From: Bifidobacterium breve
GTDB lineage: Bacteria; Actinomycetota; Acidimicrobiia; Acidimicrobiales; Ilumatobacteraceae
NCBI GenBank assembly: GCA_945901725.1
Contig: CAMDLK010000015.1
Coordinates: forward strand, 1 to 33,288
Length of the DNA stretch: 33,288 bases
Reading direction: 5' to 3'
Below the pieces are notes generated by a model, which was given only the letters and a program-made list of their open reading frames with translations, made no database searches and had not been told where the DNA came from. Made by a program: the position numbers and the translations under genes. Position 1 is the first letter of the stretch; every line of letters starts with the position of its first letter. Of the stretch, positions 25,518 to 31,540 are shown piece by piece.

Positions 25518-28500
25518 TTAACGAAAATCGCGACTAGGGATAGCGGCCGGCGCAAACAACGGCAACAACTGTTCAGCAACGATATTTATAACGCCTGTTG
25601 CAGATTCAACCCTGCCTCGCACTAATAACGCTGACGCATCACGCGCAACATTTCGGTACCGTGCCCAACACCCTTTTGAACACACAACATTGATAAGACC
25701 TGTCTCATCTTCCAAACTGATGAATGTGGCACCGCGTGCGCTCATGGGTCGTTGACGATGGGTGACAATGCCAGCCACCAACACTCGATCTTTGTGCGGC
25801 ACAGCCGGTAGCCCATCTGCAGTAACCACTCCCTTCGCTGCAAGTTGTTCACGCAGGAAAATAGTGGGGTGACCATCAGGCGAAATACCCGTGGCCCACA
25901 AATCTGCAATGGCTTCTTCCACTGGTTCCATGCCAGGCAATGTGGGCCGTGAATTCAACCCCATGATTCCCTGCAGATAAGCAACATCACCATGACCATG
26001 CGCACCTGCTTCCCACAATGCGTGCCTGCGATCATCGCCAAAACTGTCAGTGAATGCTCCAGCCGTAGCCAATGCTTCTACTTGCTTGCGCGACAAAGCA
26101 GGCACACGTGCAACCAGTTCTTCAATTGATGTGTATGGCCGATGTACTGCAATCTCACGGGCAAGTTCAGACCCGATTCCACGCACAGAACCGATACCCA
26201 GGCGCACAGCAAGACCAGTTTCCGAATCACTACACACTTCAAGCGTCGCTTCATGCCCCGATGCATTGATATCAGGAGTGCGCACCACAACACCATGACG
26301 CCGTGCATCACGCACCAATGTGTGTGGCGACCAAAACCCCATTGGTTGTGCATTCAATAACGCAGCACAGAACACAGCTGGTTCATGCAACTTGATATAC
26401 GACGACGAATACACGAGATACGCAAAACTCACTGAGTGACTTTCGGGAAATCCGTAATTGGCAAACGCTGCCATCTTCAGAAAAATCTCATCAGCAATTG
26501 CATCAGTAATGCCGCGTTCTGCCATGCCCTGATACAGCCGCACCTTCAACCGTTCCATACGGGCCTGCGACCGCTTCGAGCCCATGGCTTGGCGCAGTTG
26601 ATCAGCTTCACTTGCCGTGAAGCCAGCAACATCGATTGCCATTTGCATCAGTTGCTCTTGGAACAGCGGAATACCCAATGTCTTACCGAGAGAATTCTCT
26701 AACAGCGGATGCAGATACGTAATGGGTTCAAGTCCATTACGTCTGCGAATGTACGGATGAACTGACCCACCTTGAATTGGCCCGGGGCGAATGAGAGCGA
26801 TTTCCACAACCAAGTCATAAAAGCGACGCGGCTTTAAACGAGGCAATGTTGACATTTGTGCGCGCGACTCCACCTGAAACACGCCCACTGTGTCTGCACG
26901 ACACAACATGGAATACACATCATCTTCTTGCGGAATGGTCGCAAGGTCAAGTTCATACCCGCGGTGTTCCGAAATAAGCGACACAGCATTTGACAGTGCC
27001 GACAACATGCCAAGACCCAACAGGTCAAACTTCACCAGCCCTGCAGCAGCACAATCATCTTTGTCCCACTGCAACACACTGCGATTAGCCATGCGCCCCC
27101 ACTCAACTGGGCACACTTCAATAATGGGCCTGTCGCACATCACCATTCCACCTGAGTGGATACCCAAGTGCCGCGGCATATGTTCCACTTCGGCGGCCAT
27201 CTCTAACACCAAGTCGGGAATGTCATGGTCACGTTGTGTGGCAGTAATAGCAACCGTGCCCCATGCATCAACTTGTTTACTCCATGAATCTTGCTGATCA
27301 GCTCTATGCCCTAATGCGCGCGCCATATCGCGCACTGCTGAACGCGAGCGGTATGTAATGACATTGGCAACTTGTGCTGCATGATGACGCCCATGACGGG
27401 AATATACATACTGAATCACTTCTTCTCGCCTTCCGCTTTCAATGTCGATATCAATATCGGGCGGACCATCGCGCTCTGGTGACAAGAAGCGTTCAAACAA
27501 CAAGCCCAATGACACCGCATCGGCTTTTGTAATACCAAGAGAAAAACACACAGCACTGTTTGCCGCGCTTCCGCGACCCTGACACAAAATGCCCTGTTCG
27601 GTACAGAACCGCACGATGTCCCACACCACTAAGAAATAGCCAGCGAAGCCAAGCGTTTCAATGATTTCTAATTCATGGTCAATCGTGCGCCACGCACGTG
27701 CACGCAATGATAAGTCTTCACTTGATTCAGCCGGTTTCTCGCCGTACCGATGTTGTGCACCGCGCGCAACAAGCTGTCGCAAGTACGACATCTCCGTATG
27801 GCCATCAGGGCACGGAAACGGCGGTAACTGTGGTGCAACTAATGACAAGTCAAAAGCAATTTCCTGTGCAAGGGTTGCTGTGCGCTCTACAACACCTGGG
27901 TACCGCGCAAAGCGCCGTTGCTGTTCAACGCCGGAACGCAAGTACGCCGTTGCTGCAGCCGGTAAAAGATGATCAATGCTGTCAAGACCACACCTGTTAC
28001 GCACCGCCGCTAATGCTGTTGCCAAACGATGTTGCGCCGGCACCGCATACATGACGTTGTTGCTAGCAACACACTCAAGGTCAAGCATTGCTGCCAACTG
28101 CACCAACTGGTCATTACGCACAGCATCAATAGGGTCGCCGTGATCCCACAGTTCCACCAACACATTGCGTTGCCCGAAATGCTCGATTAACGAACGTAAT
28201 GAACGTTCTGCTTCTGCTGGGCCATGCTGCACCAATGCCTGCACCACCGCGCTGGTACGACCACCTGTGAGAACCAAGCAATGATCACGCACTGTTTGCC
28301 CCACCGTGGGAAATGAAAACACGGGAGCACCTTTACTGCCGGCAAGTTGTCCTTCACTAATGGCTCGTGCCATACGCGCATACCCTGATGGCCCGCGCGC
28401 CAACAACACAATGTCGCCAGCAGCACAATCAAGTTCCACTCCAAAGATGGTTGGCAAGTTCACTGCACGTGCTGCTTCTGCAAAACGAACGACACCGTAC

Positions 28501-28796
28501 AAACCATTGCGATCAGTGATGGCAAGCGCAGATAACCCGAGCGCCGCTGCCACCTCTGCTAATTCTTCAGGGTGTGCTGCACCTTCTAAGAACGAAAAAT
28601 TAGATGTGCAATGCAATTCTGCATACGGCACCGTGGGCAGCTGACGTGACAACACGGGCTCAAACGGTTGACGTGTTGCACTAAACGCAGGGCCATCGCC
28701 GCCTGCATTCCAGCCAATCGAAGACGGCGCTCGACCATCAGACAGACGCGCTTCTAATTCGTGCCACGGCATCGCCGGATTATTGAACCCCACCAT
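25518..28796 (-). CDS. dnaE2: Error-prone DNA polymerase III alpha subunit DnaE2/ImuC
   Basis: PHP domain YAELHCTSNFSFLEGAAHPEELAEVAAALGLSALAITDRNGLYG; polymerase motif GPPDIDIDIES; C-terminal OB region; adjacent to imuB and imuA' with an SOS box. Confidence 0.96.
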   Translation of the reverse strand: MVGFNNPAMPWHELEARLSDGRAPSSIGWNAGGDGPAFSATRQPFEPVLSRQLPTVPYAELHCTSNFSFLEGAAHPEELAEVAAALGLSALAITDRNGLYGVVRFAEAARAVNLPTIFGVELDCAAGDIVLLARGPSGYARMARAISEGQLAGSKGAPVFSFPTVGQTVRDHCLVLTGGRTSAVVQALVQHGPAEAERSLRSLIEHFGQRNVLVELWDHGDPIDAVRNDQLVQLAAMLDLECVASNNVMYAVPAQHRLATALAAVRNRCGLDSIDHLLPAAATAYLRSGVEQQRRFARYPGVVERTATLAQEIAFDLSLVAPQLPPFPCPDGHTEMSYLRQLVARGAQHRYGEKPAESSEDLSLRARAWRTIDHELEIIETLGFAGYFLVVWDIVRFCTEQGILCQGRGSAANSAVCFSLGITKADAVSLGLLFERFLSPERDGPPDIDIDIESGRREEVIQYVYSRHGRHHAAQVANVITYRSRSAVRDMARALGHRADQQDSWSKQVDAWGTVAITATQRDHDIPDLVLEMAAEVEHMPRHLGIHSGGMVMCDRPIIEVCPVEWGRMANRSVLQWDKDDCAAAGLVKFDLLGLGMLSALSNAVSLISEHRGYELDLATIPQEDDVYSMLCRADTVGVFQVESRAQMSTLPRLKPRRFYDLVVEIALIRPGPIQGGSVHPYIRRRNGLEPITYLHPLLENSLGKTLGIPLFQEQLMQMAIDVAGFTASEADQLRQAMGSKRSQARMERLKVRLYQGMAERGITDAIADEIFLKMAAFANYGFPESHSVSFAYLVYSSSYIKLHEPAVFCAALLNAQPMGFWSPHTLVRDARRHGVVVRTPDINASGHEATLEVCSDSETGLAVRLGIGSVRGIGSELAREIAVHRPYTSIEELVARVPALSRKQVEALATAGAFTDSFGDDRRHALWEAGAHGHGDVAYLQGIMGLNSRPTLPGMEPVEEAIADLWATGISPDGHPTIFLREQLAAKGVVTADGLPAVPHKDRVLVAGIVTHRQRPMSARGATFISLEDETGLINVVCSKGCWARYRNVARDASALLVRGRVESATGVINIVAEQLLPLFAPAAIPSRDFR

Positions 28797-28801
28797 GCAA
28801 T

Positions 28802-28827
28802 TCTATACGAACATATGTTCGTATAGA
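28802..28827. promoter_or_regulatory. LexA-type SOS box (core CGAACATATGTTCG at 28808-28821) inside a 26-bp perfect palindrome, dnaE2 promoter
   Basis: TCTATACGAACATATGTTCGTATAGA is its own reverse complement; the core matches the Gram-positive/actinobacterial LexA consensus; next to dnaE2. Confidence 0.93.
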
Positions 28828-28830
28828 CAA
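28802..28830 (-). promoter_or_regulatory. dnaE2 promoter: -35 TTGTCT, 17-bp spacer containing the SOS box, -10 TATAGA
   Basis: Minus strand reads TTGTCT-ATACGAACATATGTTCG-TATAGA-ATTGC-ATG. Confidence 0.75.
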
Positions 28831-28835
28831 GGGGG

Positions 28836-29381
28836 TTATAAGCCCAGCATGGCTTTCGTGGCGCGTAATCCGCCCAACAACCCCACATCGGCAATGGCCT
28901 CTGCCTCGTCCCATTCGAACCATCGCACCAGTTGGCTCTCACCTTCTGCAGGCGCTGGCGCAACATCAGGAGCTCGCACCACATAGCGCAGATCAAGATG
29001 CGTATGACCCTTCGGACCCGCATGCACATCAACGTGCACAAATACTCCACCGTCACTTTCATGACGCACAGGTAAACCCGTTTCTTCTTCAGCTTCACGC
29101 AATGCACCTTGTGCAGCGGTCTCCCCTGCTTCGATATGTCCACCTGGTTGCAACCACATGTTGAGTCGTTTATGCATATGCAACGCCACTTTGTCACCGG
29201 CTTCACTAACCACAATTGCTGATGCAGTGATGTGCACAAGATCTGCATTTTCGTTAAACGGGTCCGTGAGAACCGGTGCCATCTCTAAGAACTTCTCTAT
29301 TGACTCGCGTTCACGTTCATCAATTGGCGTGCGTGCGCCAACCAATTCACACCAGTGTTGAGCATCGCGATGTATCGGCAC
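28836..29381 (-). CDS. Nudix hydrolase
   Basis: Complete Nudix box GHIEAGETAAQGALREAEEETGL (GX5EX7REUXEEXGU); GTG start 24 nt downstream of the imuB stop. Confidence 0.94.
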   Translation of the reverse strand: MPIHRDAQHWCELVGARTPIDERERESIEKFLEMAPVLTDPFNENADLVHITASAIVVSEAGDKVALHMHKRLNMWLQPGGHIEAGETAAQGALREAEEETGLPVRHESDGGVFVHVDVHAGPKGHTHLDLRYVVRAPDVAPAPAEGESQLVRWFEWDEAEAIADVGLLGGLRATKAMLGL

Positions 29382-29405: not shown

Positions 29406-30869
29406 CTAGTCGTAGCGGGCAAGCAAAGTCCACTGTTGATTTTCTAAACCAACAAGAAACACTCCGACACCACGACGTGGGTGCCGCACCAACACCTGCA
29501 TGCGTACCTGGCGGCGTTTGCGACGCGGATCCCACCAACGTTCTTCAAGCGGCCATGGCCCTGCAACGCGCACAACGTCATACTTTTGACTGCCGACTTC
29601 TACATATGACGGCACCGTGTTCAGTTCATGCCGGCCGGTAACCCCAACATCGCTACCACTGGCATCAACAACCCGAATGAGCGGCGGTTCAACAGCAACA
29701 GATGCTGGCGACGGTGACGGCACAGAACCTGACCACTGACGCGCAACGCCATCACCCGTGTGTACTCGTTGCTCACTTGCATCAGGGTTGGTGATATCAA
29801 CAAGAGACAACGGCACGCGTGAATACACAGTTGCCATATCGCGACCACCTTCCCATCGCGGCACCGTTACCTGCACACTGGTGTTCACAGCCATTGCCAT
29901 GCTGGCTGCGCGAGCTGCACGTTCAGTATTTTCCTGACTGCCGCCCCACAACAACGGTTGCGACACCAACACTTCGCGACTTTCTAACGGCATCAACTCA
30001 ACTCGCACAACACCACTGGTAGGCGCATCAGGGTCTGCAGCTGAATCAGTGAGCCATCCTTCAAGTTGATACAAAAGCCGTTGCGCTGTGACTGCCGCAC
30101 TAAACCCGCGCGGTTCACCCCAAATACGGCTAGTGCTTTCTGCATGATCAGTGTCACAAGTAATCAATAAACGGACGCATTGCTGACCATGCCCAGCAAT
30201 GGCATTCACCATGGCGTCAATGGTGTCGCGAGCAGCAGACACCACGTGTGCCGCATTGGCCAACGGTGATTCGAATTCAATACTGCACGCAAAGTCTGAT
30301 GGTGGCGCACCAGGTGCAAGGTGCTGCACTTCGTCGCCAGACACCAGTAGATACACACGTTTGCCTTCAACACCGAAACGATCAATTAGCGCAGCTTCAC
30401 CCACGGTCAGTAATGCACCACATGTACCAAGACCTAACCGTTGAAATAGGTCAACAGAGTCTGCAGTAATGCCACCCACGCGAGACAATGACGCCACCGG
30501 CAATGCTGCAATGAACTCAGCAGCAATAGCGGTATCAATAACGCACGGAAGTTGACGTGACACCGCTAAGTGGGCCGCAGCAAGCGCAGCAAAACGCGAA
30601 TCAGCAATGCCGACCCCAAAAGCTGAACCCATATTGGAATCAAGACAGATCTGATGCAGTTTTTGCGCAACCGCTTTATCGCCACCGAAATAACGCGATG
30701 GGCCGCGCGCCGACAACACAATGGTGCCAATATCTTGCACTTCAACAAGTGGTGACAATGCAGTGACCGCACGAACCACATGTTCAAAGGTACGAAACGC
30801 GTGTTCTTCACCTAAGTGACCATGTTCCTGCATCCAATGCGGAAACACCACAGCAATAGAACGACTCAT
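29406..30869 (-). CDS. imuB: ImuB, Y-family polymerase-like (non-catalytic) mutasome protein
   Basis: MSRSIAVVFPHWMQEHG..., SARGPSRYFGGDKAVAQKL, DLFQRLGLGTCGALLTVGEAALIDRFG; C-terminal clamp-binding-like QPLLWGG. ATGA overlap with imuA'. Confidence 0.92.
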   Translation of the reverse strand: MSRSIAVVFPHWMQEHGHLGEEHAFRTFEHVVRAVTALSPLVEVQDIGTIVLSARGPSRYFGGDKAVAQKLHQICLDSNMGSAFGVGIADSRFAALAAAHLAVSRQLPCVIDTAIAAEFIAALPVASLSRVGGITADSVDLFQRLGLGTCGALLTVGEAALIDRFGVEGKRVYLLVSGDEVQHLAPGAPPSDFACSIEFESPLANAAHVVSAARDTIDAMVNAIAGHGQQCVRLLITCDTDHAESTSRIWGEPRGFSAAVTAQRLLYQLEGWLTDSAADPDAPTSGVVRVELMPLESREVLVSQPLLWGGSQENTERAARAASMAMAVNTSVQVTVPRWEGGRDMATVYSRVPLSLVDITNPDASEQRVHTGDGVARQWSGSVPSPSPASVAVEPPLIRVVDASGSDVGVTGRHELNTVPSYVEVGSQKYDVVRVAGPWPLEERWWDPRRKRRQVRMQVLVRHPRRGVGVFLVGLENQQWTLLARYD

Positions 30870-31513
30870 GAGATACCTGGCAACTGCACCGTGCATGAAC
30901 GATGCGCGTACACACGGCGCCCTGATGCAGAGACTTCAACCGTGCGTGACCTGGCATGAGTATCAAACTGCCAATCAACAGTGCGTGCACTAAACGATGC
31001 GTCGAGAGAAAACCCGCCAGGCTTTCCCAACACAAACAGCACAGCCTCTTGCGCTTTCACACGCGTAGCAATGCGACGTGCTTCAGACTGTGAACACACG
31101 GGCGACGACACCGCGACAAGATCAACGCCATCAACTAACGCACCAACTACTGGCGACATGACAGACGATGTGTTGTCTCCAGACACACACAAGGTGCGAT
31201 GCAACGCCACACCATGTTCATATGCAGACATCAGACCGGCAGTAGGCATGTTGACCATGGCAAACCACGAACCTGCAGTAGTGGCCGCAGCAACAAGACC
31301 AAATAACAGCGACGTAGCAGCATCACCCGTGCAGCCATATATGTAGCCGCGCTCGAGACCTGCTGCCGGCAACAACGGTGCTAGTGATGAAGCAACTGCA
31401 ATGGGGCCAAACCCGCTAGCGACATGGGCATGCATTCGTTCAGCAAATTGCACACCTGTTTCCACGCCTGCAATGCGCATGCCTGCAAGTTCTTCAAAAG
31501 CGACGCGTCCCAT
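30866..31513 (-). CDS. imuA': ImuA' (RecA/SulA-like mutasome accessory protein)
   Basis: 215 aa; position directly upstream of imuB with ATGA overlap; GSWFAMVNMPTAGLMSAYEHGVAL...; SOS box at its promoter. Confidence 0.85.
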   Translation of the reverse strand: MGRVAFEELAGMRIAGVETGVQFAERMHAHVASGFGPIAVASSLAPLLPAAGLERGYIYGCTGDAATSLLFGLVAAATTAGSWFAMVNMPTAGLMSAYEHGVALHRTLCVSGDNTSSVMSPVVGALVDGVDLVAVSSPVCSQSEARRIATRVKAQEAVLFVLGKPGGFSLDASFSARTVDWQFDTHARSRTVEVSASGRRVYAHRSCTVQLPGIS

Positions 31514-31526: not shown

Positions 31527-31540
31527 CGAACATATGTTCG
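31527..31540. promoter_or_regulatory. LexA-type SOS box CGAACATATGTTCG, imuA'-imuB(-nudix) promoter
   Basis: 14-bp perfect palindrome identical to the dnaE2 box core, 13 bp upstream of the imuA' ATG. Confidence 0.93.

Follow-up and report, generated by a model that had tools for sequence, protein, structure and literature searches.

In Streptomyces venezuelae, the LexA operator is a 16-bp motif of the form tCGAAC-N4-GNNCGa (PMC9380542). The operator described here resembles that actinobacterial type, with CGAAC-N4-GTTCG at dnaE2, recA, and lexA of a genome that encodes the LexA equivalog (TIGR00498) and RecA (TIGR02012), but its dyad symmetry spans 26 bp, and that of its relatives 28 to 52 bp, almost only at mutasome operators. 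The gene cluster that it serves is like the SOS-controlled imuA'-imuB-dnaE2 cassette of mycobacteria (PMC10421592) in that the same three genes are under predicted LexA control. Unlike the mycobacterial cassette, it has a NUDIX gene between imuB and dnaE2, and dnaE2 has a LexA promoter of its own inside the cassette.

Two further bodies of work bear on the comparison. In leaderless actinobacterial genes, TANNNT precedes the start codon by about 12 bp (PMC3160421, PMC3898074), and lexA of M. tuberculosis is itself leaderless (PMC2897130). The dnaE2 promoter has the same arrangement (TAGAAT-N6-GTG 28793), but its -10 is fused to a LexA half-site, an association conserved at dnaE2 and imuA' throughout the order. 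The second concerns quasipalindrome template switches, in which inverted copying perfects an imperfect palindrome and produces multibase compensatory changes (PMC7202029, PMC8794818). The arms of the present operator show this pattern, with the difference that the process would be acting on a repressor operator, as judged from sequence comparison.

The window, the whole stretch of 33,288 nucleotides that was analyzed, is part of a 1.9-Mb draft genome whose dnaE2 relatives lie mostly in Ilumatobacteraceae and other Acidimicrobiales. On the minus strand, the genes are ordered imuA', imuB-like, NUDIX hydrolase, and dnaE2 (Table 1), such that imuA', imuB, and dnaE2 are adjacent members of one cassette; imuB is named from weak Y-family matches together with its position. 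A pattern search for the SOS boxes of the genome located CGAACN4GTTCG at lexA (two perfect boxes), recA, imuA', and dnaE2. NUDIX-like matches turned up in 47 of the searched dnaE2 loci, and in many of these the match ends immediately before dnaE2. The NUDIX hydrolase may regularly accompany the mutasome genes of this group as an additional member of their cassette.

Table 1. Positions of the cassette genes and of the promoter and operator elements in the window.
Feature	Coordinates	Strand	Basis and remarks
dnaE2, error-prone DNA polymerase	25518..28793	-	NCBIfam NF004225; start codon compared across seven relatives
Most likely -10, TAGAAT (TANNNT)	28800..28805	-	Exactly 6 nt before the GTG start in 7 of 7 genomes with the palindrome
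Alternative -10, TATAGA (from the earlier note)	28802..28807	-	17-bp spacing to TTGTCT; lacks the final T of TANNNT
Predicted extended LexA operator of dnaE2, 26-bp perfect palindrome TCTATACGAACATATGTTCGTATAGA	28802..28827	-	Self-complementarity; chance calculation
LexA (SOS box) core CGAACATATGTTCG	28808..28821	-	imuA' has the identical core; lexA and recA in this genome have related boxes
-35-like hexamer TTGTCT	28825..28830	-	Sequence; TTTTCT in the relative L018 (88% identical)
NUDIX hydrolase gene	28836..29381	-	Pfam PF00293; same strand as dnaE2; ends 8 bp before the palindrome
imuB-like, degenerate Y-family polymerase	29406..30896	-	Weak DNA polymerase IV matches; position in cassette
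imuA', DnaE2-dependent mutagenesis accessory factor	30866..31513	-	NCBIfam NF058630
Second LexA operator of the cassette, at imuA', CGAACATATGTTCG, 14 bp only	31527..31540	-	Followed by -10 TACGCT (31525-31520), N6, and ATG 31513

The dnaE2 operator is self-complementary throughout its 26 bp on the minus strand, as the earlier note had claimed. No other perfect palindrome in the window exceeds 16 bp, about 0.0005 of at least 26 bp are expected there by chance, and, given the 14-bp LexA core, six extra pairs per side have a probability of about 0.0002. The core fits CGAAC-N4-GTTCG, and its motif, its gene, and its regulon context make the palindrome almost certainly the LexA operator of dnaE2. 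The dyad symmetry extends beyond the roughly 14 to 16 bp of the described LexA motif, which makes the site a variant of that motif and does not exclude it, symmetry length being no requirement for recognition of the core by LexA.

The hexamers named in the earlier note are present, with TTGTCT at 28830-28825 and TATAGA at 28807-28802 on the minus strand, 17 bp apart. The palindrome was said to fill the spacer between them; it does cover the spacer but also holds all of TATAGA and half of TTGTCT. The overlap of the SOS box of dnaE2 with its promoter is likewise upheld from the sequence, and bound LexA is predicted to occlude RNA polymerase. In many dnaE2 and imuA' operators a TTG lies 9 to 12 bp upstream of GAAC, and no match to a terminator or to the sigma-70 consensus was found near the palindrome on either strand.

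Two assignments required correction, namely the predicted start codon of dnaE2 and its -10. The in-frame ATG at 28796 is unique to this genome, since each of the six relatives with the palindrome either lacks it or has it out of frame, and the start kept among relatives is the GTG at 28793. TAGAAT is a likelier -10 than the TATAGA proposed earlier because it fits the actinobacterial TANNNT and stands exactly 6 nt before this conserved GTG, a position that makes a leaderless dnaE2 mRNA highly probable. The arrangement is widespread in the order. Among nonredundant operators, TANNNT begins no more than 3 bp from GTTC in 62 of 83 at dnaE2 and 32 of 42 at imuA', and a start codon follows TANNNT at exactly N6 in 33 and 22 of these, respectively; at recA and lexA operators, TANNNT occurs in 4 of 36 and 7 of 52, with no N6 start in either. 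The majority of operators at dnaE2 and imuA' in the order share a GTTCG-N-TANNNT-N6-start design, which recA and lexA operators lack.

From these elements a mode of operation can be proposed in which a leaderless dnaE2 promoter has its LexA operator between -35 and -10. A LexA dimer bound at the core would lie across the spacer and some of the -10, barring RNA polymerase from both promoter elements. Upon DNA damage, RecA-stimulated cleavage of LexA would free the operator, and transcription would start at or beside GTG 28793. Overall, the best explanation of the locus, to which we assign a probability of about 0.72, is a leaderless, LexA-controlled dnaE2 promoter whose outer arms came from inverted template copying. 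The sequence and architecture of the site, the recurrence and covariation of the arms, and the polarity of the right-arm change are directly shown; LexA binding, the leaderless start, and template switching are what we infer.

The history of the arms within the genus is consistent with such copying. The 26-bp palindrome is kept in relatives that are 97 to 99% identical and in L018 (88%). In the sister clade (L014, L015, and L038), the left arm is the same (tttCTATAC, with one substitution in L015) and the right arm is GGTATCCT, and in most of the genus the right arm is GGTANNNT or GCTANNNT. On the maximum-likelihood DnaE2 tree, the right arm changed on one supported branch, and the derived arm matches the inverted left arm at 8 nt, compared with 1 nt for the sister. 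The long palindrome therefore arose once in this genus, with the right arm becoming an inverted copy of the left. An ancestral right arm, GGTANNNT, was replaced by an inverted copy of the left arm (TTCTATAC to GTATAGAA), most simply in one quasipalindrome template-switch event that was seeded by the LexA core and retained a good -10, and comparable conversions would have occurred repeatedly at other dnaE2 and imuA' operators of the order. A lineage-specific half-site preference of LexA was rejected as the cause of the symmetry in this genome, the lexA, recA, and imuA' boxes of this genome being asymmetric just outside the core.

Among homologous promoters, a perfect GAACN4GTTC box lies upstream in 99 dnaE2 loci and is lacking in 9. 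The earlier note had named conservation of the core alone as the observation that would speak against a role for the arms, and this is in part what was found: homologues generally keep only the 14- to 16-bp core, although a minority have symmetry of 24 to 52 bp, with extremes of 38 and 52 bp. General conservation of the core alone speaks against a conserved function of the arms. The outer arms are probably a lineage-specific addition, and base-specific function would reside in the 14- to 16-bp core plus the -10.

Long arms nevertheless recur in the order. Arms extending at least 6 bp beyond GAAC/GTTC occur in 15 of 126 dnaE2 and imuA' operators (about 1.2 expected) versus 1 of 90 recA and lexA operators. 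Expectations were obtained by permuting right flanks among nonredundant operators; the separate values are 8 of 83 at dnaE2 (0.53 expected) and 7 of 43 at imuA' (0.62 expected), with 0 of 36 at recA and 1 of 54 at lexA, and since redundancy was cut at 70% identity without a full tree model, residual shared ancestry may inflate these enrichments. The symmetry was not an artifact of a shared right-arm type, as stratification by the first three right-arm bases left 8 versus 1.0 at dnaE2 and 7 versus 1.8 at imuA'. A general excess of long palindromes was not seen, with three non-LexA cases of at least 22 bp in 1.6 Mb of DNA chosen around LexA sites. The single extended recA/lexA box is the lexA operator of L199, TTGACAC-GAACGGGTGTTC-GTGTCAA.

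One extended form, GTATC-GAACN4GTTC-GATAC, was present in 55 of the 347 genomes sampled from the order, for which a control pattern gave zero; outside the order, 3 of 367 sampled Actinomycetota had it. Its 65 sites comprise 41 at imuA'/imuB, 13 at dnaE2, and 11 without an assignment. Covariation of the arms is significant for three positions beyond GTATC/GATAC (28 bp in total) and then stops, and the outer base pairs differ by lineage: CCA/TGG in 26, ACA/TGT and GCA/TGC in 2 each, and CGA/TCG, CAA/TTG, and CTA/TAG in 1 each. Inheritance of a single CCA/TGG state was rejected as the source of this covariation, in that 7 of 17 imuA' operators without a left CCA are symmetric, versus 1.1 expected. 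Mutasome operators are thereby set apart from other LexA operators by a dyad symmetry that reaches 28 bp while its bases change.

In one extreme case, the imuA' operator of L298 (G034:C3:51000-51500) forms a 38-bp perfect palindrome, in which the left arm is the inverse of the right arm common to L061, L063, and L066; the copy takes in the discriminator and reaches 13 bp past GTTC. Immediately upstream of the palindrome are short tandem repeats (GCCGCGCGAAGCAAGGCTCAGTCGAAATA). In the other, a 52-bp perfect palindrome in L403 (G327:C24:114650-115900) is centered on the imuA' LexA core and runs into the first imuA' codons; it is possibly a template-switch product or an assembly error.

No binding model predicts symmetry that is conserved while bases change, and the arms admit two main accounts. 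In one, bases well beyond the established LexA contacts can add affinity to a site and would thereby determine when the error-prone polymerases are switched on; in the other, repressor sites are remade into perfect palindromes by a mutational process. A derived arm that is an inverted copy of the other, with several bases changed on one branch, is the signature of copying and is present here. Template switching is reported to create and perfect hairpins with multibase compensatory changes (PMC8794818), and protein blocks, or at least those that are covalent, are reported to stimulate it (PMC6357072). The extremes in L298 and L403 also point to inverted copying, and we give template copying about an even chance of being the main source of the arms. 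A purely mutational origin is opposed by the recA and lexA boxes, which should gain arms too, yet only 1 of 90 has done so; the rarity of comparably long palindromes away from LexA boxes (the three cases in 1.6 Mb) also counts against it. Because long arms are restricted to mutasome operators, selection or tighter LexA occupancy probably also matters, and selection for tight repression may help to keep the arms.

The strongest competing explanation is that the operator was selected for high affinity, the arms prolonging LexA binding or improving occlusion such that the mutasome genes are tightly repressed and induced late. The enrichment of arms at dnaE2 and imuA' without enrichment at recA or lexA favors this explanation, as does the concentration of the GTATC..GATAC form at imuA'/imuB or dnaE2 (54 of the 65 sites) and its presence in 55 of the 347 genomes. 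In E. coli, moreover, SOS induction of the mutagenesis gene umuD comes late, and the timing of induction correlates with the rates at which LexA dissociates (PMC5999292). The outer positions, however, covary without one consensus, a pattern not predicted for a homodimer that reads bases; the LexA motif published for actinobacteria spans 16 bp (PMC9380542), and arms are missing from most dnaE2 operators. A base-reading protein is a poor cause of the arms because a consensus would be expected where symmetry with drifting bases is seen, and selection for affinity as the source of the arms is possible but somewhat doubtful. The extra-strong repression suggested in the earlier note is possible: it fits the enrichment of long arms at mutasome genes but is incomplete as an explanation because the arms covary without consensus and in one relative enter coding sequence.

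A tentative version of the copying account makes the mutagenesis operators hotspots of inverted template copying provoked by tightly bound LexA. If true, multibase inverted copying takes the place of point mutation in the evolution of these control sites, and the arms are perfected repeatedly, so that symmetry is conserved while sequence drifts. No earlier report of extended LexA operators or of template switching at repressor operators was found in the literature searched. The kind of operator is itself known and does not constitute a new regulatory system, but an extended palindrome that covaries and is enriched at mutasome operators appears to be a new form of it.

The remaining explanations fare less well. 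A hairpin might be the functional unit, either in a read-through imuA'-imuB-nudix mRNA, where it would protect the upstream 3' end or block entry to dnaE2, or extruded in DNA. Symmetry without consensus, compensatory changes, the position of the palindrome after the stop codon of one gene and before the start of the next on the same strand, and an RNA folding z-score of -3.7 all agree with a hairpin, though the z-score is uninformative here because perfect palindromes fold by construction. There is no terminator signature at the palindrome, however, and a leaderless dnaE2 mRNA would not include the hairpin, leaving a hairpin improbable.

A bidirectional promoter, in which a mirrored -10 drives both strands, is highly implausible. 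By symmetry, TATAGA is present on both strands, and the earlier note had raised symmetric transcription on this ground, but on the plus strand the mirror position lacks a TANNNT, AATTCT stands in place of a -35, and there is no promoter match. No divergent gene adjoins the palindrome, the upstream NUDIX gene being codirectional with dnaE2. Divergent genes at extended operators were supported in neither of the two cases examined, this window and L403, where the opposite-strand ORF has 17 codons and the neighbor is codirectional. Chance extension of an ordinary SOS box would suit the rarity of the CTATAC..GTATAG form, found only in this genome of the 347 sampled from the order, but it is scarcely credible at a probability of about 0.0002 for the dnaE2 box and is very unlikely as the source of the whole family of sites, which recurs in independent lineages far above the permutation expectation.

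Further LexA boxes were seen at other loci. Three tandem LexA-like boxes precede dnaE2 in L113, and the lexA promoter (L002/L003, G000:C6:29548-29620) has two perfect LexA boxes 24 bp apart and a third close match, AGAACATTTGTTCT. A gene resembling FtsB/DivIC is preceded, at a distance of about 50 bp, by a perfect SOS box, CGAACAAATGTTCG (L007 position 1143, G000:C24), suggesting a possible link between the SOS response and cell division.
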